From Lentisphaeria bacterium (lineage in GTDB: Bacteria; Verrucomicrobiota; Lentisphaeria; Victivallales; Victivallaceae), in assembly GCA_017462015.1 (NCBI GenBank), contig JAFTRX010000106.1, positions 1-64,000 of the forward strand: a stretch of DNA of 64,000 nucleotides, in the 5' to 3' direction. The notes beneath the pieces are model-generated. The model was not told the origin of the DNA and made no database searches. It saw nothing but the letters and a program-made list of their open reading frames with translations. Below are positions 3,813 to 62,676 of the stretch, piece by piece. The stretch's first letter is position 1. The number at the start of each line of letters is the position of its first letter. The position numbers and the translations under genes are program-made.

Positions 3813-4694
3813 TTATTCTTCACCGCGCATCTGACGGCGCGCTTTTTTCAACCGTTCGAACTCGTGCGGAGAAAGGCTGTTTATTCCTTCCCGGGAAAGT
3901 TTATCCAGCAATGCATCCAATTCCCGCTGGGTCACCGGAGCATTGCTGTTTCCGAATGCGGTACTGCCGGAACCATTGAACATGCTGTCCGGCTGCGGAC
4001 GGGCGGTTTTGGCACTTCCCGGCGATGGCATTGGCGGCAGTTTGATGAAATTCAACGGATCCCAGGCGAGCCTGGTCTTGTAAAAAAGTATCTTCATGAC
4101 GATATAACCGCCGATAAAACCGCCGAGATGCGCAAGATGCGCCACGCCTTCATTGCGGTTCCCCATCAACATCAACACCTCCATCACCGTATAGCAGATC
4201 ACCAGCGTGGTGGTCTTTATCGGCGAAAACGGCAGAAACAGCAGCGTGAAACGGCGGTTGGGTTCCAGCATGGCAGCGGCGACCATGATTGCACACACCG
4301 CACCGGAAGCGCCGAGGCATCCGCCGCCGGCATTGAAATGGGTGACGTAATAGAGCAAATTTCCGGACACCGCTCCTGCCAGATAGATAATGAAAAACTT
4401 CCACCGGGAAACGTATGGTGTCACCAGTTGTCCAAAAAGGTACAATCCCCACATATTGAAGAATAAGTGCCAGAATTCACCGTGCGCAAAACCGGCAGAG
4501 GCGAGTTGAAACAAATTGGATGCACTGAATTCACCTGCAGTAATATCCAGCGCCAGTTGAGACGAACCACCGGGGATTTTAAAGACGAAATAGTTAAAGA
4601 TATTGATGATTATCAAAGTAATGAGCATCGGACGCCCATCCTGCGACGGATCAGGATTGGGAGAACGCATATATTCACGGTTGTGCAGACCCAT
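3813..4694 (-). CDS. Rhomboid family intramembrane serine protease
   Basis: 293 residues from the ATG at 4694, preceded by AGGAGGT at 6-8 nt; a longer frame to 4787 runs through a repeat fragment and is not supported. Six membrane segments carry the rhomboid signature: the loop motif HLFFNMWGLYLFG, the catalytic serine in GASGAVCAIM, and the catalytic histidine in HLAHLGGFIGG. The C-terminal 80 residues are a soluble tail with an SHOCT-like ending (LDALLDKLSREGINSLSPHEFERLKKA, shown in parts). This places a serine protease in the membrane, cutting helical substrates. It is the first gene of the operon with queA, M50 protease and NUDIX. Confidence 0.9.
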   Translation of the reverse strand: MGLHNREYMRSPNPDPSQDGRPMLITLIIINIFNYFVFKIPGGSSQLALDITAGEFSASNLFQLASAGFAHGEFWHLFFNMWGLYLFGQLVTPYVSRWKFFIIYLAGAVSGNLLYYVTHFNAGGGCLGASGAVCAIMVAAAMLEPNRRFTLLFLPFSPIKTTTLVICYTVMEVLMLMGNRNEGVAHLAHLGGFIGGYIVMKILFYKTRLAWDPLNFIKLPPMPSPGSAKTARPQPDSMFNGSGSTAFGNSNAPVTQRELDALLDKLSREGINSLSPHEFERLKKARRQMRGEE

Positions 4695-4736: not shown

Positions 4737-4795
4737 GTAAAAAACGACCTGCGGCGGCGCCTCGCGGGCAATCTTGGGCGCAAACAAGCTGTTTT
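4737..4795 (-). repeat. Family A repeat, internally deleted copy
   Basis: Reading on the minus strand, the ends match the A elements at 30.6 and 32.4 kb (outer block ATAAAACAGCTTGTTTGC and inner block GCGGCGCC...GCAGGTCGTTTTTTACAAAAA), but the roughly 90 bp between them is missing. It lies in the 5' leader of the rhomboid gene, about 40 bp before the start, in the same relative orientation as the copies before rpoN, araB and nagA. Confidence 0.8.
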
Positions 4796-4840
4796 ATCAA
4801 CTTTCGCATTTCACAAAATTCGAAATATTACCAAAATATT

Positions 4841-6237: not shown

Positions 6238-6844
6238 ACGTCAGTTTCTCGACCCGCAGCGGCGGCACGATCTTGATATTATCGCCGACGCGGTCAATCC
6301 CGGCGACCGGGTTCTTGACCTCGGTTGCGGTGACGGTATCTTTCTCCGTGAACTCAAAGAAAAACGTAAAGCACGCGTTCTCGGCGTGGAGATAGATCAG
6401 GACTCCATCGTCCGTTGTATCGGCAACGGCGTTCCGGTCATTCAGCGCGATTTGAACGGCGATCTGGGCTTTTTCCCGGATAAGTCGTTTGACCTTGCGG
6501 TACTCAGCCATACGCTTCAGGAAACCAGCCGTCCGGATCTGCTGCTGCGAAGCATCGTCCGCATCGGCAAACGCGCTGCAGTCAGTGTCATCAACTTCGG
6601 TCACTGGCGCTGCCGCACCCAGGTGATGTTCCGCGGCAGAATGCCCCGCAGTACCCAGATGCCGTTCCAATGGTACGATACGCCCAATATCCACTTCTGC
6701 ACACTGCGCGATTTCCGTGAATTATGCGCCCGGTTGAATATCAAAATCGTGGAAGAACGCCCGATTCCCGGACGTTTCCCCCGGTTGACGAAGCTCTTCC
6801 CCAACGCCTTTGCCACGGTATGTGTTTTCATCCTTGAAGGCTGA
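6230..6844 (+). CDS. metW: Methionine biosynthesis protein MetW
   Basis: 204 residues, a class I SAM-methyltransferase-like fold. Motif I is VLDLGCGDGIFLREL near residue 28, followed by an acidic end of strand 2 (VLGVEID) and FDLAVLSHTLQE. The family member-specific run FGHWRCRTQVMFRGRMP is present. MetW partners MetX in many proteobacteria and is coupled to it here too (ATG inside the last codons of metX, Shine-Dalgarno AGGAGGGAT). The pair is thought to convert homoserine to its O-acyl ester efficiently; the exact chemistry of MetW is not settled. Confidence 0.93.
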   Translation: MNKRQFLDPQRRHDLDIIADAVNPGDRVLDLGCGDGIFLRELKEKRKARVLGVEIDQDSIVRCIGNGVPVIQRDLNGDLGFFPDKSFDLAVLSHTLQETSRPDLLLRSIVRIGKRAAVSVINFGHWRCRTQVMFRGRMPRSTQMPFQWYDTPNIHFCTLRDFRELCARLNIKIVEERPIPGRFPRLTKLFPNAFATVCVFILEG

Positions 6845-6845
6845 A

Positions 6846-7260
6846 TCTTGCGGAGATCTTGCTTGCTCCCGCGAGCCTTTCCGGCGGACACGGAAGCAGT
6901 CGAGGACAGTAGTCCACTCCTGCTCCCGCGCCTTGGAAAAACTCGCGGATAGCGGCGCGATATCTCCGCAAGATGAAATAAGAATTTTATATTTCCGGCG
7001 GACACGGAAGCAGTCGAGGACGGTAGTCCACTCCTGCTCCCGCGCCTTGGAAAAACTCGCGGATAGCGGCGCGATATCTCCGCAAGATGAAATAAGAATT
7101 TTATATTTCCGGCGGACACGGAAGCTGTCGGGGACAGTAGTCCACTCCTGCTCCCGCGCCTTGGAAAAACTCGCGGATAGCGGCGCGATATCTCCGCAAG
7201 ATGAATAAGAATTTTATATTTCCGGAGGACACGGAAGCTGTCGGAGGACAGCATCCCGTG
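6846..7260 (+). repeat. Family C tandem repeat, 114-bp unit, three to four copies
   Basis: Unit starts can be placed at 6881, 6995, 7109 and 7222 (periods 114, 114, 113), the last unit degenerate after about 40 bp. Units differ by a few substitutions and one lost A. The stretch before the first unit (6846-6880) and the central block GGATAGCGGCGCGATATC match, in reverse complement, the repeats at 61.66-61.84 kb. The core CGAGGAC[AG]GTAGTCCACTCC is also found inside family A copies at 46.2 and 53.5 kb. As 114 is divisible by three the region stays open in several frames, but no convincing gene is present. It fills the whole metW-hydrolase gap. Confidence 0.9.
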
Positions 7261-30353: not shown

Positions 30354-30398
30354 AAATCTGGTAATGTCAAAAATGACAGAGTTTGCAGCAATAAATAC

Positions 30399-30713
30399 AA
30401 TAAAACGGCTTGTTCGCGACCGGCGGATGGATCATGGAGCAAGGTTGGGGGTAAATCAAGGCGAAGCCGAGGGAGTGTACGACTGTACTCGACCGAGGAT
30501 GAGTCCGCAGATTTGCCCGCAAGATTGCCCGCGAGGCGCCGCGAAGGTTCTGAAAAAGACTGTACTCGACCGGCGGATGCATCGTGGTGCAAGGTTGGGG
30601 GTAAATCAAGGCGAAGCCGAGGGAGTGTACGACTGTACTCGACCGAGGATAAGTCCGCAGATTTGCCCGCAAGATTGCCCGCGAGGCGCCGCCGCAGGTT
30701 GTATTTTTCACGA
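30399..30713 (+). repeat. Family A repeat, head-to-tail dimer before rpoN
   Basis: Two near-identical copies (about 30399-30559 and 30560-30713) with a period of 150 bp are joined by a 30-bp linker of the form CGAAGGTTCTGAAAAAG...ACTCGACCGG. Each has AAGGTTGGGGGTAAATCAAG, the GTACGACTGTACTCGACCG block and a GCGAGGCGCC palindrome. The outer end GGTTGTATTTTTCAC is near-inverted to the leading AATAAAAC block. It ends 13 bp before rpoN. The region is open in several frames because of the 150-bp period, but I do not read it as coding. Confidence 0.9.
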
Positions 30714-30726
30714 AACGTAAAAGAAT

Positions 30727-32157
30727 ATGTCCTCCATCGAACAGCATCTGCAAACAGGATTGACCCAACAGCAAACCACTGCGCTATCCATGCAGCAGCG
30801 GTTAGGGTTGGAATTGCTCCATTTGCCGTTGCAGGAGCTGGAAAACCGTCTGGCGCAAGAACTTATTTCCAATCCGGTACTGGAGGAACTTCCACCGGAA
30901 CCGGCAGAAGCCACGCCGCAGGAGCATGAGAAAGAATCTCAAAACGACGACGATTATGAATCAGCTTTTGAAGTGACTCTCGCTGAAAACGACCGCTGGA
31001 CGGATGAATTGCCGCTCCCGGCAAACGCAGAAGCTGACGACGATGACCGCAAGCTGGATTTTTTATCCAACTCCCCGGCATCAGCACCCGCGCTGACGGA
31101 ACTGCTGCTGATCGAATTGGAAACGAACGACCTTCCGGACAACATCCGGAAGGCGGCAATTGAGATCATCTTCTCCATTGATCCGGACGGTTTTCTCCGG
31201 GTCAACCTCGCCGATCTGGCAATGAGCTGTGATTGTGAAATGGATGAAATGCAGACTGCATTAGCTCTGGTGCAGGAGCTTGCCCCGCCCGGTGTCGGAG
31301 CGCGTGATCTGCCGGAGTGTCTGGAACTGCAGTTGAAACGGCGCGGCAAACTGGATGAAAAAATGCATACCCTCATCCACAACCACTTGGATGATGTGGC
31401 GCAGGGAAATCTGTCTGCATTGCAAAAAAAACTTGCAATCAGCGCGGAGGAGTTGGACAAAATGCTGGCATTACTGCGGCAGTTGGCCCCGGTTCCCGGG
31501 ACATCGTTCAATTCCGCGCACGCGCCGGTGGTAATGCCGGAACTGGAAATAGAACAGCTTCCGGATGGAACATTTATCATCCGGCAGCTGCGGGAAAATT
31601 TCCGGAAAATCACCATCTCCAACTATTATGAAAAACTTCTGGAAGATGCGTCTCTAAGTTCCGATGACCGCAAATATCTGAATGAAAAACTTCTGCGCGC
31701 CCGGGAGCTGATAAAATCTCTGACGATGCGGGATTCGACCCTGACTCTTCTGGGCAAACTTATCATCGAACAGCAGGAGGAATTCCTCCATCGCGGTATT
31801 GCCGGATTGAAAACTTTCACCATGCGGGAAGCCGGAGCGCTTCTCGGTTATGACGAAAGTACCATCAGCCGCGCCGTTGCCGACAAATTCATCCGGACTC
31901 CGCACGGTGTATTTCCGTTGCGTTTTTTCTTCTCCAGCGGCGGCGGAAGCAGCGGCGACGGAGAGAAAATCGCCGCTGCCGCAATCATGGAGCAGATCAG
32001 GCAAATCATCGCACAAGAAGAGCCGGCAAAACCGGTTTCAGACGAAAATATCGCCCGCACTTTGTCTGAACAAGGCATAAATGTGGCGCGCCGTACCGTG
32101 GCAAAATACCGCGATGCACTGAAAATACCTCCGGCATCGGCACGCAAACGGCGTTAA
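30727..32157 (+). CDS. rpoN: RNA polymerase sigma-54 factor
   Basis: 476 residues. Region I (1-50) is Gln/Leu-rich and interacts with enhancer proteins (SMQQRLGLELLHLPLQELE); region II is acidic (about 60-110); region III has core-binding repeats; near the C-terminus is the HTH (FTMREAGALLGYDESTISRAV, in parts) that reads the -12 element and finally the RpoN box ARRTVAKYR. No bacterial enhancer-binding activator is encoded in the window. Repeats of the same family flank the gene on both sides; the ribosome site is weak. Confidence 0.96.
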   Translation: MSSIEQHLQTGLTQQQTTALSMQQRLGLELLHLPLQELENRLAQELISNPVLEELPPEPAEATPQEHEKESQNDDDYESAFEVTLAENDRWTDELPLPANAEADDDDRKLDFLSNSPASAPALTELLLIELETNDLPDNIRKAAIEIIFSIDPDGFLRVNLADLAMSCDCEMDEMQTALALVQELAPPGVGARDLPECLELQLKRRGKLDEKMHTLIHNHLDDVAQGNLSALQKKLAISAEELDKMLALLRQLAPVPGTSFNSAHAPVVMPELEIEQLPDGTFIIRQLRENFRKITISNYYEKLLEDASLSSDDRKYLNEKLLRARELIKSLTMRDSTLTLLGKLIIEQQEEFLHRGIAGLKTFTMREAGALLGYDESTISRAVADKFIRTPHGVFPLRFFFSSGGGSSGDGEKIAAAAIMEQIRQIIAQEEPAKPVSDENIARTLSEQGINVARRTVAKYRDALKIPPASARKRR

Positions 32158-32192
32158 ATCAAAGAAAATTATAAGATACAAAATTCAGTTGA

Positions 32193-32476
32193 ACGTGAAA
32201 AATAAAACAGCTTGTTTGCAACCGCCGGATGGATCGTGGAGCATCCTCCTTCGCCTCGATGGCTACGGAGGACAGGAGCAAGATTGCCCGCTCTTCTCCG
32301 CCGCGAAGGTTCAGAAAAAGAATGAACTCGACCGGCGGATGGATCGTGGAGCAAGGTTGGGGGTAAATCAAGGCGAAGCCGAGGGAGTGTACGACTGTAC
32401 TCGACCGAGGATAAGTCCGCAGATTTGCCCGCAAGATTGCCCGCGAGGCGCCGCCGCAGGTCGTTTTTCACAAAAA
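32193..32476 (+). repeat. Family A repeat, dimer before araB
   Basis: The first copy (32193-32320) is degenerate: its middle is replaced by a CCTCCTTCGCCTCGATGGC-type stretch. The second (about 32326-32476) is complete and matches 30560-30713 almost base for base. The linker AAGGTTCAGAAAAAGAATG also recurs at 49.64 kb. The outer end GTCGTTTTTCACAAAAA stops 17 bp before the araB ATG. Confidence 0.88.
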
Positions 32477-34076: not shown

Positions 34077-34095
34077 ATTGTACACGATGTTCACG

Positions 34096-34225
34096 ATAAG
34101 GGGAAATTGCTCAGGAGAAGGGAAAAACTTCTTTTCACGAGAAAAGAAGTTTTTCCCTTCTCCCGAACCCTCATCCCTTTTCAAGAAAAGCGAAGTATTT
34201 TATTTTCTCCGTTGTCGCGGCATAA
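34096..34225 (+). repeat. Family B hairpin element, copy 2 (araB-araD gap)
   Basis: A perfect 23-bp inverted repeat (34114-34136 and 34141-34163, loop ACGA) is followed by the family tail CGAACCCTCATCCC...AAAAGCGAAGTATTT and CTCCGTTGTCGCGGC. It resembles a strong RNA hairpin and separates araB from araD, where it may lower araD expression or stabilise the araB mRNA. Confidence 0.85.
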
Positions 34226-45380: not shown

Positions 45381-46118
45381 ATGAAACGTTTTTTCACCAT
45401 ACTGGCGGCGTTGACCATCGGCGCCGCCGGTGCCATTGAACTCAACGTCAACGGCAGTCATGAGCATATTGCGCTGAATTGGAAAAACACTATGGCTTAC
45501 CCCGCGTTTACGGTGAGCTTCAAAGTGCGGATGAATAAAAAAGATATGGTGCTTCCTGCCAGCGTAAAAAATCGCGGCAGAATATTGTTCCAACTCAATT
45601 CCGGTACCCCCAAAGCTCCCGGACTGCAGAATATCAAGATATTCTTCAGTGTTCCCTCTCATCCGGCAGGCGGCTATGCCGGAATTCAATCCAGCAGCAA
45701 AAATCATTCCGGGAAAGAGGAAAGAATCCGCTACAACGTCTTCTGGCGCGCGGAAAACAGTCAGGTTCCGACCGATGAGTTTGTCACCGTCACCCTGGTT
45801 TATGCCGACGGCAGACTGGATGCCTATTTGAATCAGCAGAACCACGCCGCGCTGCATAAACTTATGACCCACACCATCATCCATGCCGCACCGGAATATC
45901 AGATGAGTTTCGGCGGAATGGGGAAACGCTACAGCGTCCCCTGCGCAATAAAGGATATCGCCATATTCGACCGGGCATTGACGGCACAGGATGCCAAACT
46001 TCTTGCAACAGGAACCAAACCGCAAAAAATCATCGGACTGCTGGCATATTACCCCTTGGAGAAAAACGGAAATCCTGCGGTCGCCTCATCGCAAATCAAG
46101 CTGAAAGTGATTAAATAA
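45381..46118 (+). CDS. Exported LamG/concanavalin-like domain protein
   Basis: 245 residues from the ATG at 45381, six bases after the upstream stop; a GTG at 45372 overlapping that stop is an alternative. A signal peptide (FFTILAALTIGAAGA) precedes one jelly-roll domain: FTVSFKVRMNKKD, VTVTLVYADGRLDAYLN and IKDIAIFDRALTAQDAKLLATG are the classic LamG strands. It probably binds glycan and acts with the DUF4838-type protein with which it is coupled. No catalytic residues are recognised. Confidence 0.72.
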   Translation: MKRFFTILAALTIGAAGAIELNVNGSHEHIALNWKNTMAYPAFTVSFKVRMNKKDMVLPASVKNRGRILFQLNSGTPKAPGLQNIKIFFSVPSHPAGGYAGIQSSSKNHSGKEERIRYNVFWRAENSQVPTDEFVTVTLVYADGRLDAYLNQQNHAALHKLMTHTIIHAAPEYQMSFGGMGKRYSVPCAIKDIAIFDRALTAQDAKLLATGTKPQKIIGLLAYYPLEKNGNPAVASSQIKLKVIK

Positions 46119-46125
46119 TACCACC

Positions 46126-46310
46126 CATAAGAAACGGCCTGCGGCGGCGCCTCGCGGGCAATCTTGGGGGCAAATCTGCGGACTCAGCTTCAGTCGAGGA
46201 CGGAAGTCCACTCCTTCAGTTTCGCCTTGATTTACCCACAACCTTGCTCCACGATCCATCCGCCGGTCGCGACAGACCATTTTGAACGCAGTTTACAGGG
46301 GATGCGTTCA
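46126..46310 (-). repeat. Family A core with partial family D flanks
   Basis: Inverted relative to the rpoN copies. The left flank CATAAGAAACG and right flank CCGGTCGCGACAGACCATTTTGAACGCAG are those of the MITE-like element at 53.5 kb, but its terminal repeats are gone. It lies between convergent genes. Confidence 0.85.
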
Positions 46311-49611: not shown

Positions 49612-49807
49612 AATCCTGCTCCGCGAGGCGCCGCCGCGAAGGTTCAGAAAAAAGAATGAACTCGACCGGTGGATGCATCGTGGTGCAAGGTTGGGGGTAA
49701 ATCAAGGCGAAGCAGAGGGAGTGTACGACTGTACTCGACCGAAGCTGAGTCCGCAGATTTGCGCCCAAGATTGCCCGCGAGGCGCCGCCGCAGGTTGTAT
49801 TTTACAA
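49612..49807 (+). repeat. Family A repeat before nagA
   Basis: A remnant of a first copy (CCGCGAGGCGCCGCCG), the usual linker AAGGTTCAGAAAAAAGAATG and a full second copy (about 49660-49807) ending GGTTGTATTTTACAAAC, 15 bp before the nagA ATG. Some positions (GAAGCTGAGTCCGCAG) match the 46 and 53 kb copies rather than the rpoN copy. The repeat stays open in frame with nagA, so automated callers may wrongly extend nagA by 51 codons. Confidence 0.88.
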
Positions 49808-53364: not shown

Positions 53365-53468
53365 AAGTAAAGCTCCTCAAACAGTACCCGTTGCAGATTT
53401 TCAGTTAATGTATCACACTTTTTTTAAAAGTCAAACTCCGGGAAGCACCGGGTTTTTTTGTGTTTTAG

Positions 53469-53791
53469 CACAGCTGTCACATAGGAAACGACCTGCGGCG
53501 GCGCCTCGTGGGCAATCTTGGGGGCAAATCAGCGGACTCAGCTTCGGTCGAGGACGGTAGTCCACTCCCTCAGCTTCGCCTTGATTTACCCCCAACCTTG
53601 CCCACGATCCATCCACCGGTCGCGACAGACCATTTTGAACGCAGTGTCACTGGTGGCGCGGCGCATGGCGCACGCGCGTTTTGCTTGCGCAAAACAAAAT
53701 CTGACAAAATCACTTTTTCAAGATCCAATTTTCTTCCGCTGAAAAAAATTGAAAAAATAAACTTTTTTCTGATTTTATAAGATATCTGTGG
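53469..53791 (+). mobile_element. Family D MITE-like element carrying the A core
   Basis: About 323 bp. The left end is CACAGCTGTCACATAGG and the right end ATATCTGTG, as in the 49.2 kb element; the 125-bp family A core (about 53491-53615, inverted) is present between GAAACG and CCGGTCGCG. Flanking 9-mers GTGTTTTAG and GTGTTTTTG differ at one base, a plausible 9-bp target duplication. It lies between the divergent reductase and tig genes. Confidence 0.85.
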
Positions 53792-53811
53792 TGTTTTTGT
53801 AAAAAAACTGT

Positions 53812-60965: not shown

Positions 60966-61344
60966 ACGTCCGTCACCGCTGCTGCTGATTGCAGCAGTAA
61001 TGTTTACCGCACTTGCGCCAATGGGGATACCGTCAGCGAAGGCGGTCGATCCGTCGACGTTGATAACCGCCGCGCCGCACGCCGCGCAGCTGGCGAAGCT
61101 GTGGAGCCCGCAGCTGTTCCGGGCGCTGGGCTCAACCGGGACAGGATTATACAAAATGGGTGCAGCGATGCTGAATATCTTCCGCTTGCCGCTGGGATTG
61201 CTCCAGTGTACACTGGGAGCGCCATTCGGATTTTTCGGAGACGGAACATCCAACGTGGCACAAGGATTGATCGCGCCATGCGAATTGCTGCTGCAAACCC
61301 TGCTCCTTCCAGTACGGATAATAAGCCTCGGCACAATATACTAA
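60958..61344 (+). CDS. Small exported hydrophobic protein
   Basis: 128 residues, starting 8 bp inside the end of the GT-C-like gene. A signal peptide (PSPLLLIAAVMFTALA, cleavage near AKA at about 29) precedes a hydrophobic, Gly/Leu-rich mature part with two cysteines and the repeating LPLGLLQC / PCELLLQTLLLPV pattern. I recognise no family. It is last in the tig-to-GT-C series and is followed by a family B hairpin. Confidence 0.65.
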   Translation: MSKRPSPLLLIAAVMFTALAPMGIPSAKAVDPSTLITAAPHAAQLAKLWSPQLFRALGSTGTGLYKMGAAMLNIFRLPLGLLQCTLGAPFGFFGDGTSNVAQGLIAPCELLLQTLLLPVRIISLGTIY

Positions 61345-61345
61345 A

Positions 61346-61462
61346 GGGGAGATTGCTCAGGAGAAGGGAAAAACTTCTTTTCACGAGAAAAGAGCCGAAC
61401 GTCGGCCTCGGAGTATCCCTTCTCCCGAACCCTCATCCCTTTTCAAGAAAAGCGAAGTATTA
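61346..61462 (+). repeat. Family B hairpin element, copy 4 with broken right arm
   Basis: The start AGGGGAGATTGCTCAGGAGAAGGG, left arm, loop and tail match the araB-araD copy almost exactly, but in the right arm AGTTTTT is replaced by about 21 bases (GCCGAACGTCGGCCTCGGAG and two more). The long hairpin can no longer form fully; the inserted stretch has its own GCCGA/TCGGC stem. Confidence 0.85.
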
Positions 61463-61644: not shown

Positions 61645-61654
61645 GCTCATAGGC

Positions 61655-61842
61655 GGCGATATCGCGCCGCTATCCGGGAGTTTTTCCGAGGCGGCGGCGA
61701 GGGCGTGGGCTCACGCCCTCAACCGAGCCGACGCCCGACGGAAAGGCTCGCGGGAGCAAGCGAGATCGTCGCCCCTTATCACGCCCTCAACCGAGCCGAC
61801 TTCCGACGGAAAGGCTCGCGGGAGCAAGCGAGATCGTCGCCC
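61655..61842 (-). repeat. Family C relative, inverted
   Basis: Two direct copies of about 64 bp (CACGCCCTCAACCGAGCCGAC then CGACGGAAAGGCTCGCGGG and a GCAAGCGAGATCGTCGCCC end; 61713-61776 and 61778-61842). Their reverse complement and the adjoining GATATCGCGCCGCTATCC (61666-61690) match the start and centre of the 114-bp unit at 6.85-7.2 kb. It lies at the 3' end of the minus-strand methyltransferase gene. Confidence 0.8.
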
Positions 61843-62676
61843 TTAATCAACAACGGCACGCAGGCCGATCCCTGCGGGCAAAACGCGGCCGGTGGATTCG
61901 GGAATGAACATCTCGCCGCCGTCGATGTCACATTTTTTGCCAAAGACATCAGTGACAAGACGGGACAACACCATCAGCGAAAAGCCGGGAGAGTGACAGC
62001 TCAATACCAGAGTGAAAGGTTTCTCCGGCTTACGGAGCTGGCGGCATAATTCAAGGAGTTTCGGCAAATCAGTTTCGATTTTCCACAACTGACCGGAAGG
62101 GCCGCGGCCGAAGGTCGGAGGGTCGAGAGCGATCAGATCATATTTGGAGTTGCGGCGGAGTTCGCGCTGACAGAAGCGGTTGACATCTTCGGCGATCCAG
62201 CGTACAGCGTTGGGGATATCCGGATTGAGAGCATGATTTTCCCTGCCCCATTCGATCATACCGCGAGCGGCATCGATATGGCAAACCTTAGCGCCGCCGG
62301 CAGCCATAGCCAGAGACCCCAGACCGGAGTAAGCAAAGAGGTTCAGAGTATCCATATTGCGGCAATTCCGGCGGAAATATTCCCAGTTGCGGAACTGTTC
62401 GGCAAAGAAGCCAAGATGCCCGAAGCTGGTGGGTTTGATTTTTATCGTCATCTTGCCCAGGATGCAATTCCAGGTTTCCGGCAAAGCTTCGCGGTTATGC
62501 CAGCGGCCGTTGCCGGAACTGTCACGAACAAATTCCGATACAGCAGATTTCCATTCGCGTTCCGGCAGAGCGGGTTTCCAGAATGCGTTCAAAGCCGGAC
62601 GGATGATACGGTAAGGTCCGACCTGTTCAAGTTTTTTCAAATTTCCGCTGTCGAGCAGAATATATTCGTTTTTCAT
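61843..62676 (-). CDS. SAM-dependent methyltransferase, RlmI/RlmK-like
   Basis: 277 residues from the ATG at 62676, in a TGATG overlap with the nagA-like stop; an ATG two codons upstream is an alternative. A Rossmann methyltransferase with LNLFAYSGLGSLAMAAGGAKV as SAM motif I (split: LFAYSGLGSLAMAAGG), CHIDAARGMIEWGREN, and the catalytic LIALDPPTFGRG of the 23S rRNA m5C/m7G group. The PUA domain of full RlmI is absent. Probably methylates RNA; the target base is unknown. Confidence 0.82.
   Translation of the reverse strand: MKNEYILLDSGNLKKLEQVGPYRIIRPALNAFWKPALPEREWKSAVSEFVRDSSGNGRWHNREALPETWNCILGKMTIKIKPTSFGHLGFFAEQFRNWEYFRRNCRNMDTLNLFAYSGLGSLAMAAGGAKVCHIDAARGMIEWGRENHALNPDIPNAVRWIAEDVNRFCQRELRRNSKYDLIALDPPTFGRGPSGQLWKIETDLPKLLELCRQLRKPEKPFTLVLSCHSPGFSLMVLSRLVTDVFGKKCDIDGGEMFIPESTGRVLPAGIGLRAVVD

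Follow-up and report, generated by a model that had tools for sequence, protein, structure and literature searches.

A dispersed hairpin repeat upstream of rpoN is probably the core of a modular MITE family in one genus of gut Lentisphaeria

The 150-bp repeat that recurs in front of several genes of an uncultured gut Lentisphaeria is very probably the internal hairpin of a non-autonomous, modular family of MITEs belonging to one genus of these bacteria. It was noticed in a 64,000-nucleotide stretch of DNA (the window), which lies on contig C55 of the 2.8-Mb draft genome (131 contigs); judged by RpoN (80% identity), the named relative closest to this organism is a sheep-colon MAG of the Lentisphaeria. 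An initial annotation had proposed that the repeat serves as a mobile 5' leader (structured RNA, promoter or translation enhancer) that ties unrelated genes into one control circuit. We trained a covariance model of the core (R1) on 22 copies and then ran it on the genome and on those of its congeners. The family is short and multicopy, possesses terminal inverted repeats and target duplications of fixed length, and has, at one site, an empty counterpart in a relative.

Copies in the window and structure of the core

The leader of rpoN (30727..32157, + strand; three Sigma54 Pfam domains, DBD, CBD and AID) contains two copies of the core. They are preceded by a degenerate type-A1 5' module (30360..30415, +) that starts with a remnant 5' terminal inverted repeat, GGTAATGTC, and matches the module of other A1 copies (GGTAATGTCCCGAATTTTGTGAAACGC...AAACGGCTTGTT). 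Core copy 1, truncated at its 3' end (30416..30551, +; R1 score 147.2 bits), is followed by a linker common to the "D" copies (30543..30565, +), by core copy 2 with the consensus structure of 42 pairs (30566..30702, +; 166.2 bits), and by a 3' tail (30703..30716, +) that represents a residual 3' terminal inverted repeat, GTATTTTTCAC. Upstream of an FGGY-family kinase (called araB in the initial annotation), a variant first unit with a short alternative hairpin core and the linker (32195..32327, +) precede the core (32328..32464, +; 166.2 bits) and its 3' tail (32465..32476, +). At an amidohydrolase gene (nagA), a first-unit remnant with the linker (49618..49661, +) stands before the core (49662..49798, +; 157.1 bits). 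The three head-to-tail dimers described earlier share their linker, but a true tandem of two cores exists only at rpoN, since the first unit at the kinase is a different, shorter hairpin and that at nagA a mere remnant. From the end of the core as defined by the model, the distance to the ATG is 24 nt for rpoN (30727; last core), 28 nt for the kinase (32493) and 23 nt for the amidohydrolase (49822); the closeness to the start codons stands, with 23-28 nt measured from this point in place of the 13-17 bp given before. An internally deleted copy on the minus strand (4742..4828), in which the 3' part of the core (about 4742-4798) adjoins the 5' terminal inverted repeat, ends approximately 47 nt short of the rhomboid start codon (ATG at 4694, minus strand), a distance previously put at about 40 bp. 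All four copies lie in the sense orientation relative to their genes, as had been reported.

Two additional full copies are present in the window. One belongs to a full-length type-B element (53469..53790, -) composed of the 3' terminal inverted repeat (53469-53487), the core (53488-53623), and a type-B 5' module with the 5' terminal inverted repeat (53624-53790); it is flanked by a target-site duplication, CTAAAACAC on the 3' side (53460..53468, -; 8/9 match) and CAAAAACAC on the 5' side (53791..53799, -). Its core is in the sense orientation, but 123 nt away from the start codon. The other, a type-B core with truncated ends (46134..46270, -), lies antisense 15 nt past the stop of the gene at 45381-46118 and is a counterexample to the leader rule. 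Distant core matches were found at 6840..6976 (-; 65.3 bits), where a 114-bp tandem array begins, and at 61649..61779 (+; 53.4 bits). The array comprises three tandem units (6878-7219), parts of which weakly match the core model (65 bits for the first stretch), and a direct 68-bp tandem repeat (61711-61846) lies near the second match.

The core folds into a long hairpin whose stability depends on the strand. The sense strand of the copy at 32328..32464 has a predicted folding energy of -68.7 kcal/mol (z -5.9), as compared with -49 kcal/mol (z -2.0) for the opposite strand, and the sense strand was the more stable one in each of the 119 testable copies (mean -71.3 versus -51.5). The paired positions of the model are conserved through compensatory change, with 97.0% of cells pairing and both-side changes in 30 of the 42 pairs in the studied genome, and 93.7% and 29 of 42, respectively, in a set of copies from its congeners; since the copies share descent and the structure guided the alignments, these counts overstate the number of independent events. 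None of 500 shuffles reached any of the covariation measures in either set, and in the studied genome structures slid along the alignment fell to 36-47%. G-U cells outnumber A-C cells by 417 to 23, as expected if one strand, either as RNA or as single-stranded DNA, is what is conserved. The idea of a structured RNA is borne out by the covariation in two sets of copies and by the strand-specific fold. Consistent with the earlier statement that no known riboswitch matches, Rfam yielded no family at the gathering threshold in the window and none overlapping the element at E<=5.

Element ends, mobility and distribution

Reading outward from the core revealed larger elements with inverted ends. These are MITEs of two kinds, which we refer to as A and B, and the 150-bp element forms the core of both. 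Type-A elements have the 5' end GTTAATGTCCCAAATTTTGTGAAAC or GGTAATGTCCCGAATTTTGTGAAAC and the 3' end ...CACAAAAAATGAGACAACACC, while type-B elements have the 5' end CACAGATATCCCATAAAATC and the 3' end ...CTTATGGGACAGCTGTG; in both, terminal inverted repeats are present on the two sides, and full copies measure about 280-330 bp end to end. The sequences flanking type-A elements show an 8-bp target duplication (84% match versus 45% in shuffled pairs; 6 of 10 perfect), those flanking type-B elements one of 9 bp (74% versus 37%; 6 of 15 perfect), and no comparable signal was seen at other lengths for either type. Clean 8-bp duplications accompany a young A subfamily in the congener G018. The target duplications of the A1 and D copies are degraded, and insertion is therefore not demonstrated for each of these copies. 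Shorter hairpins of other kinds also occur within type-A ends (L169:2632-2803, L263, L264 and L268), that at L169 having a short core like the one upstream of the kinase. Because one and the same core is found within A and B ends, and A ends surround other cores, the family is modular. Some elements are composite and have taken up further modules, for instance CTTCACATCTTCACGCGCCGGAGGCGCTCTTCACGCAATCAGCG (L184, L168, L263, and D copies such as L107 and L164), and look as if repeats insert into repeats.

An empty site was found in the nearest relative, G003, in which only 20 bp, free of any repeat, separate rpoN from the gene preceding it, as compared with about 370 bp between the two genes here. 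The relatives examined for rpoN and for grpE had no core next to the respective gene; when grpE was tried as a second empty site, the G003 draft gave no match, and the other relatives are too distant for the exact site to be defined. Together with the terminal inverted repeats and the exact 8- and 9-bp duplications, the empty rpoN site upholds the earlier suggestion that the element is mobile. Most likely, the elements would be parasitic passengers of a putative DDE transposase, which, by acting on the A ends (8 bp) or the B ends (9 bp), would carry the core along. A very improbable alternative is that they resemble REP/BIME elements and are moved via single-stranded DNA by a RAYT (Y1) transposase; such a route would account for the strand-specific hairpin, whose stability and G-T pairs suit single-stranded DNA as well as RNA, but exact duplications of 8 or 9 bp combined with terminal inverted repeats indicate a cut-and-paste (DDE) enzyme.

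The inspected copies contained no transposase gene within their ends, and a search with PF00872 and through the neighborhoods of end sequences in these draft assemblies, which break at repeats, yielded none with matching ends; the autonomous partner could therefore be missing from the assemblies. We take the 8-9 bp duplications and the GTCC...TTTTGTG-like ends as a likeness to the IS256 family that serves as a lead only. An IS256 transposase was considered as the source and rejected: PF00872 had no match in the studied genome or in the copy-rich congeners searched, and the ends of the sole intact IS256-type element of the genus (G017) differ from those described here. IS256-type transposase matches occur in the core-free genomes G005, G011, G013 and G014 and are absent from the most copy-rich ones. 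Open reading frames of about 420 codons near solitary ends were likewise inspected; two had Pfam matches, to a Kdo transferase and an amidohydrolase, two had no Pfam match, and none was a recognized transposase.

The R1 model detected 129 core copies in the studied genome, where DNA searches and exact patterns had recovered dozens. That the repeat occurs beyond chance is evident from 36 near-exact 41-mers, as compared to none for a reversed-pattern control. Since many copies lie at contig ends, the true copy number is probably above 129. Among 23 sampled genomes of the same genus, 14 had R1 matches (in two cases just one, and weak), with 82 copies in G003 and 67 in G018 when more candidates were scored; no matches were obtained in the other nine (G005, G006, G009, G010, G011, G013, G014, G019 and G023) or in any of 16 genomes representing other genera of the same order. 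A plasmid search gave no match. As far as sampled, the family is confined to one genus of uncultured gut Lentisphaeria. Numerous contig ends of the studied genome (C17, C18, C21, C29, C65, C90, C98, C103 and others) lie inside the family, which probably limits and fragments the assembly of these genomes.

Position of the copies relative to genes

We derived position statistics from stretches around the copies, in which genes were predicted by a simple codon-based caller. Across the genome, 60 copies have a gene in the sense orientation as their 3' neighbor and 55 have one in antisense, and the classes of 5'/3' neighbors are same/same in 31, opposite/opposite in 12, opposite/same in 17 and same/opposite in 26; because the caller misplaced or missed some starts (that of rpoN by 63 bp too late), these counts contain a few errors, such as C83:5221, which was scored as antisense even though a sense ATG follows. 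Elements with recognizable ends have a median distance of 115 nt to a sense start (3 of 30 within 20 nt) and of 20 nt from their 3' end to an antisense stop codon. As would be expected of tolerated insertions, most occupy the stretch that separates a stop codon from the following promoter. The orientation and short spacing recorded at the first four genes do not extend to the family as a whole. Most insertions may persist where they are harmless, either immediately past a stop codon or ahead of the promoter that follows.

A different picture is seen for the copies with the 5' modules ...AAACGGCTTG and ...GAAAAAGAATGAACTCG (the A1/D subset), to which the rpoN, kinase and nagA copies belong. Within 90 nt of a gene, 18 A1 and D copies stand sense before a start and 9 antisense after a stop, as compared to 5 and 34 for all others (Fisher p = 1.2e-5), and between co-directional genes the ratio of sense to antisense copies is 16 to 1 versus 15 to 11 (p = 0.014); this grouping was chosen after the data had been seen, and both p-values are optimistic. 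The D copies alone are divided 11:9, while every A1 copy called at this distance is in the sense orientation (7:0). In sense A1/D copies, 14-50 nt separate the hairpin from the ATG, a distance that leaves no room for a promoter, and the hairpin must therefore be part of the mRNA leader. The description as a 5' leader consequently holds for this subset, but it does not apply to the family in general. Where A1/D copies land between a promoter and a start codon, they may persist almost only in the sense orientation, the antisense form perhaps being lost because it would place an outward promoter or a different hairpin before the gene.

Promoter sequences are indeed carried by some elements. Most intact A2/A3 copies contain a near-consensus sigma-70 promoter, TTGACA-17-TATATT (or TATACT), with 1 mismatch in 12 positions, that leads out of the 5' end in the direction opposite to the sense direction of the core; A1 copies have it in varied states, and type-B copies lack it. 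In the copies noted initially, this outward promoter points away from the downstream gene and hence does not drive it. The rpoN copy has, in addition, a weaker match in the sense direction, ATGACA-17-TACAAT (30373-30401).

These data bear on the proposal that the repeat is a dedicated cis-regulatory leader that has spread to many genes and tunes their expression together, which we consider unlikely. The bias of the A1/D copies, the covarying hairpin of a single strand, and a core that is 88-93% identical among A1 and D copies with flanks of only about 59% identity are in its favor. A riboswitch-like leader would always be sense and precede related genes, but the family-wide orientation is balanced, and the genes downstream of the A1/D copies are unrelated (GrpE, Hsp20, phosphoglucose isomerase, an epimerase, a HAD hydrolase, an AraC regulator, a recombinase, DUF1846 and others), so that neither a shared control circuit nor a regulated switch is supported. 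Moreover, the same core is found antisense past stop codons and within type-B elements, was not seen beside rpoN or grpE in the relatives checked, and is absent from nine congeners. It is conceivable, albeit rather unlikely, that the A1/D copies have become a domesticated mobile leader, retained in one orientation before about 20 unrelated genes (among them rpoN, grpE, hsp20, pgi and nagA), where it would jointly set mRNA stability or translation.

Many copies lie antisense 0-30 nt past a stop codon, a position that would suit a terminator-like or insulating repeat whose hairpin ends transcription after genes. We regard this as improbable: 14-50 nt before a start, such a hairpin would cut off rpoN and grpE unless read-through took place there, the rpoN copies showed no terminator-like site, and the more stable strand is opposite to the one transcribed after the stop codons.

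Relation to known intergenic repeats

In its architecture, though without any claim to a relation in sequence, the BOX repeat of Streptococcus pneumoniae and S. suis is the nearest parallel to the MITE family described here. In S. suis, two kinds of ends (boxA/C and boxE/F) surround the same boxB, and an action of BOX on mRNA has been proposed (PMC3049150). The two families have in common modular ends with exchangeable internal parts, RNA stem-loops, an intergenic location and about 100 copies per genome, and here, too, different end modules (A and B) share the same core. They differ in that our family belongs to another phylum, has a central long hairpin in place of boxB arrays, and generates 8- or 9-bp duplications.

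The NEMIS/Correia elements of Neisseria produce a short target duplication of the TA type, whereas duplications of 8 and 9 bp are found here. These elements are likewise MITEs with inverted ends and promoter sequences, and their transcribed hairpin is a proposed target of RNase III (PMC2229807, PMC2649163); the family studied here differs in sequence, is larger and is modular. ERIC, a 127-bp long imperfect palindrome of enterobacteria, is co-transcribed with its neighbors and influences mRNA in an orientation-dependent manner, and a role in mRNA processing or stability has been proposed for the hairpins of both NEMIS and ERIC (PMC2229807). The likeness to ERIC is one without a demonstrated link in sequence, and ends and duplications are explicit in our elements. 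By analogy with NEMIS and ERIC, the sense A1/D hairpin, transcribed as a 5' leader or as an inter-cistronic hairpin, would probably function as an mRNA processing or stability element of the RNase III or RNase E type.

A narrow search of open papers on Lentisphaerae and MITEs or intergenic repeats turned up no description of this family. It adds to the Lentisphaerota a well-anatomized, genus-wide modular MITE family in which the hairpin of one strand is maintained through compensatory changes and some copies are now obligatory parts of mRNA leaders. The filled, empty, sense and antisense insertions provide a ready set for asking whether such elements are tolerated passengers or recruited regulators. 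Another dispersed hairpin repeat (CTTTTCACGAGAAAAGAAGTTTTTCCCTTCTCC...), apparently unrelated to the core in sequence, is present in the window at 34085-34192, 151-242 and 61343-61461.
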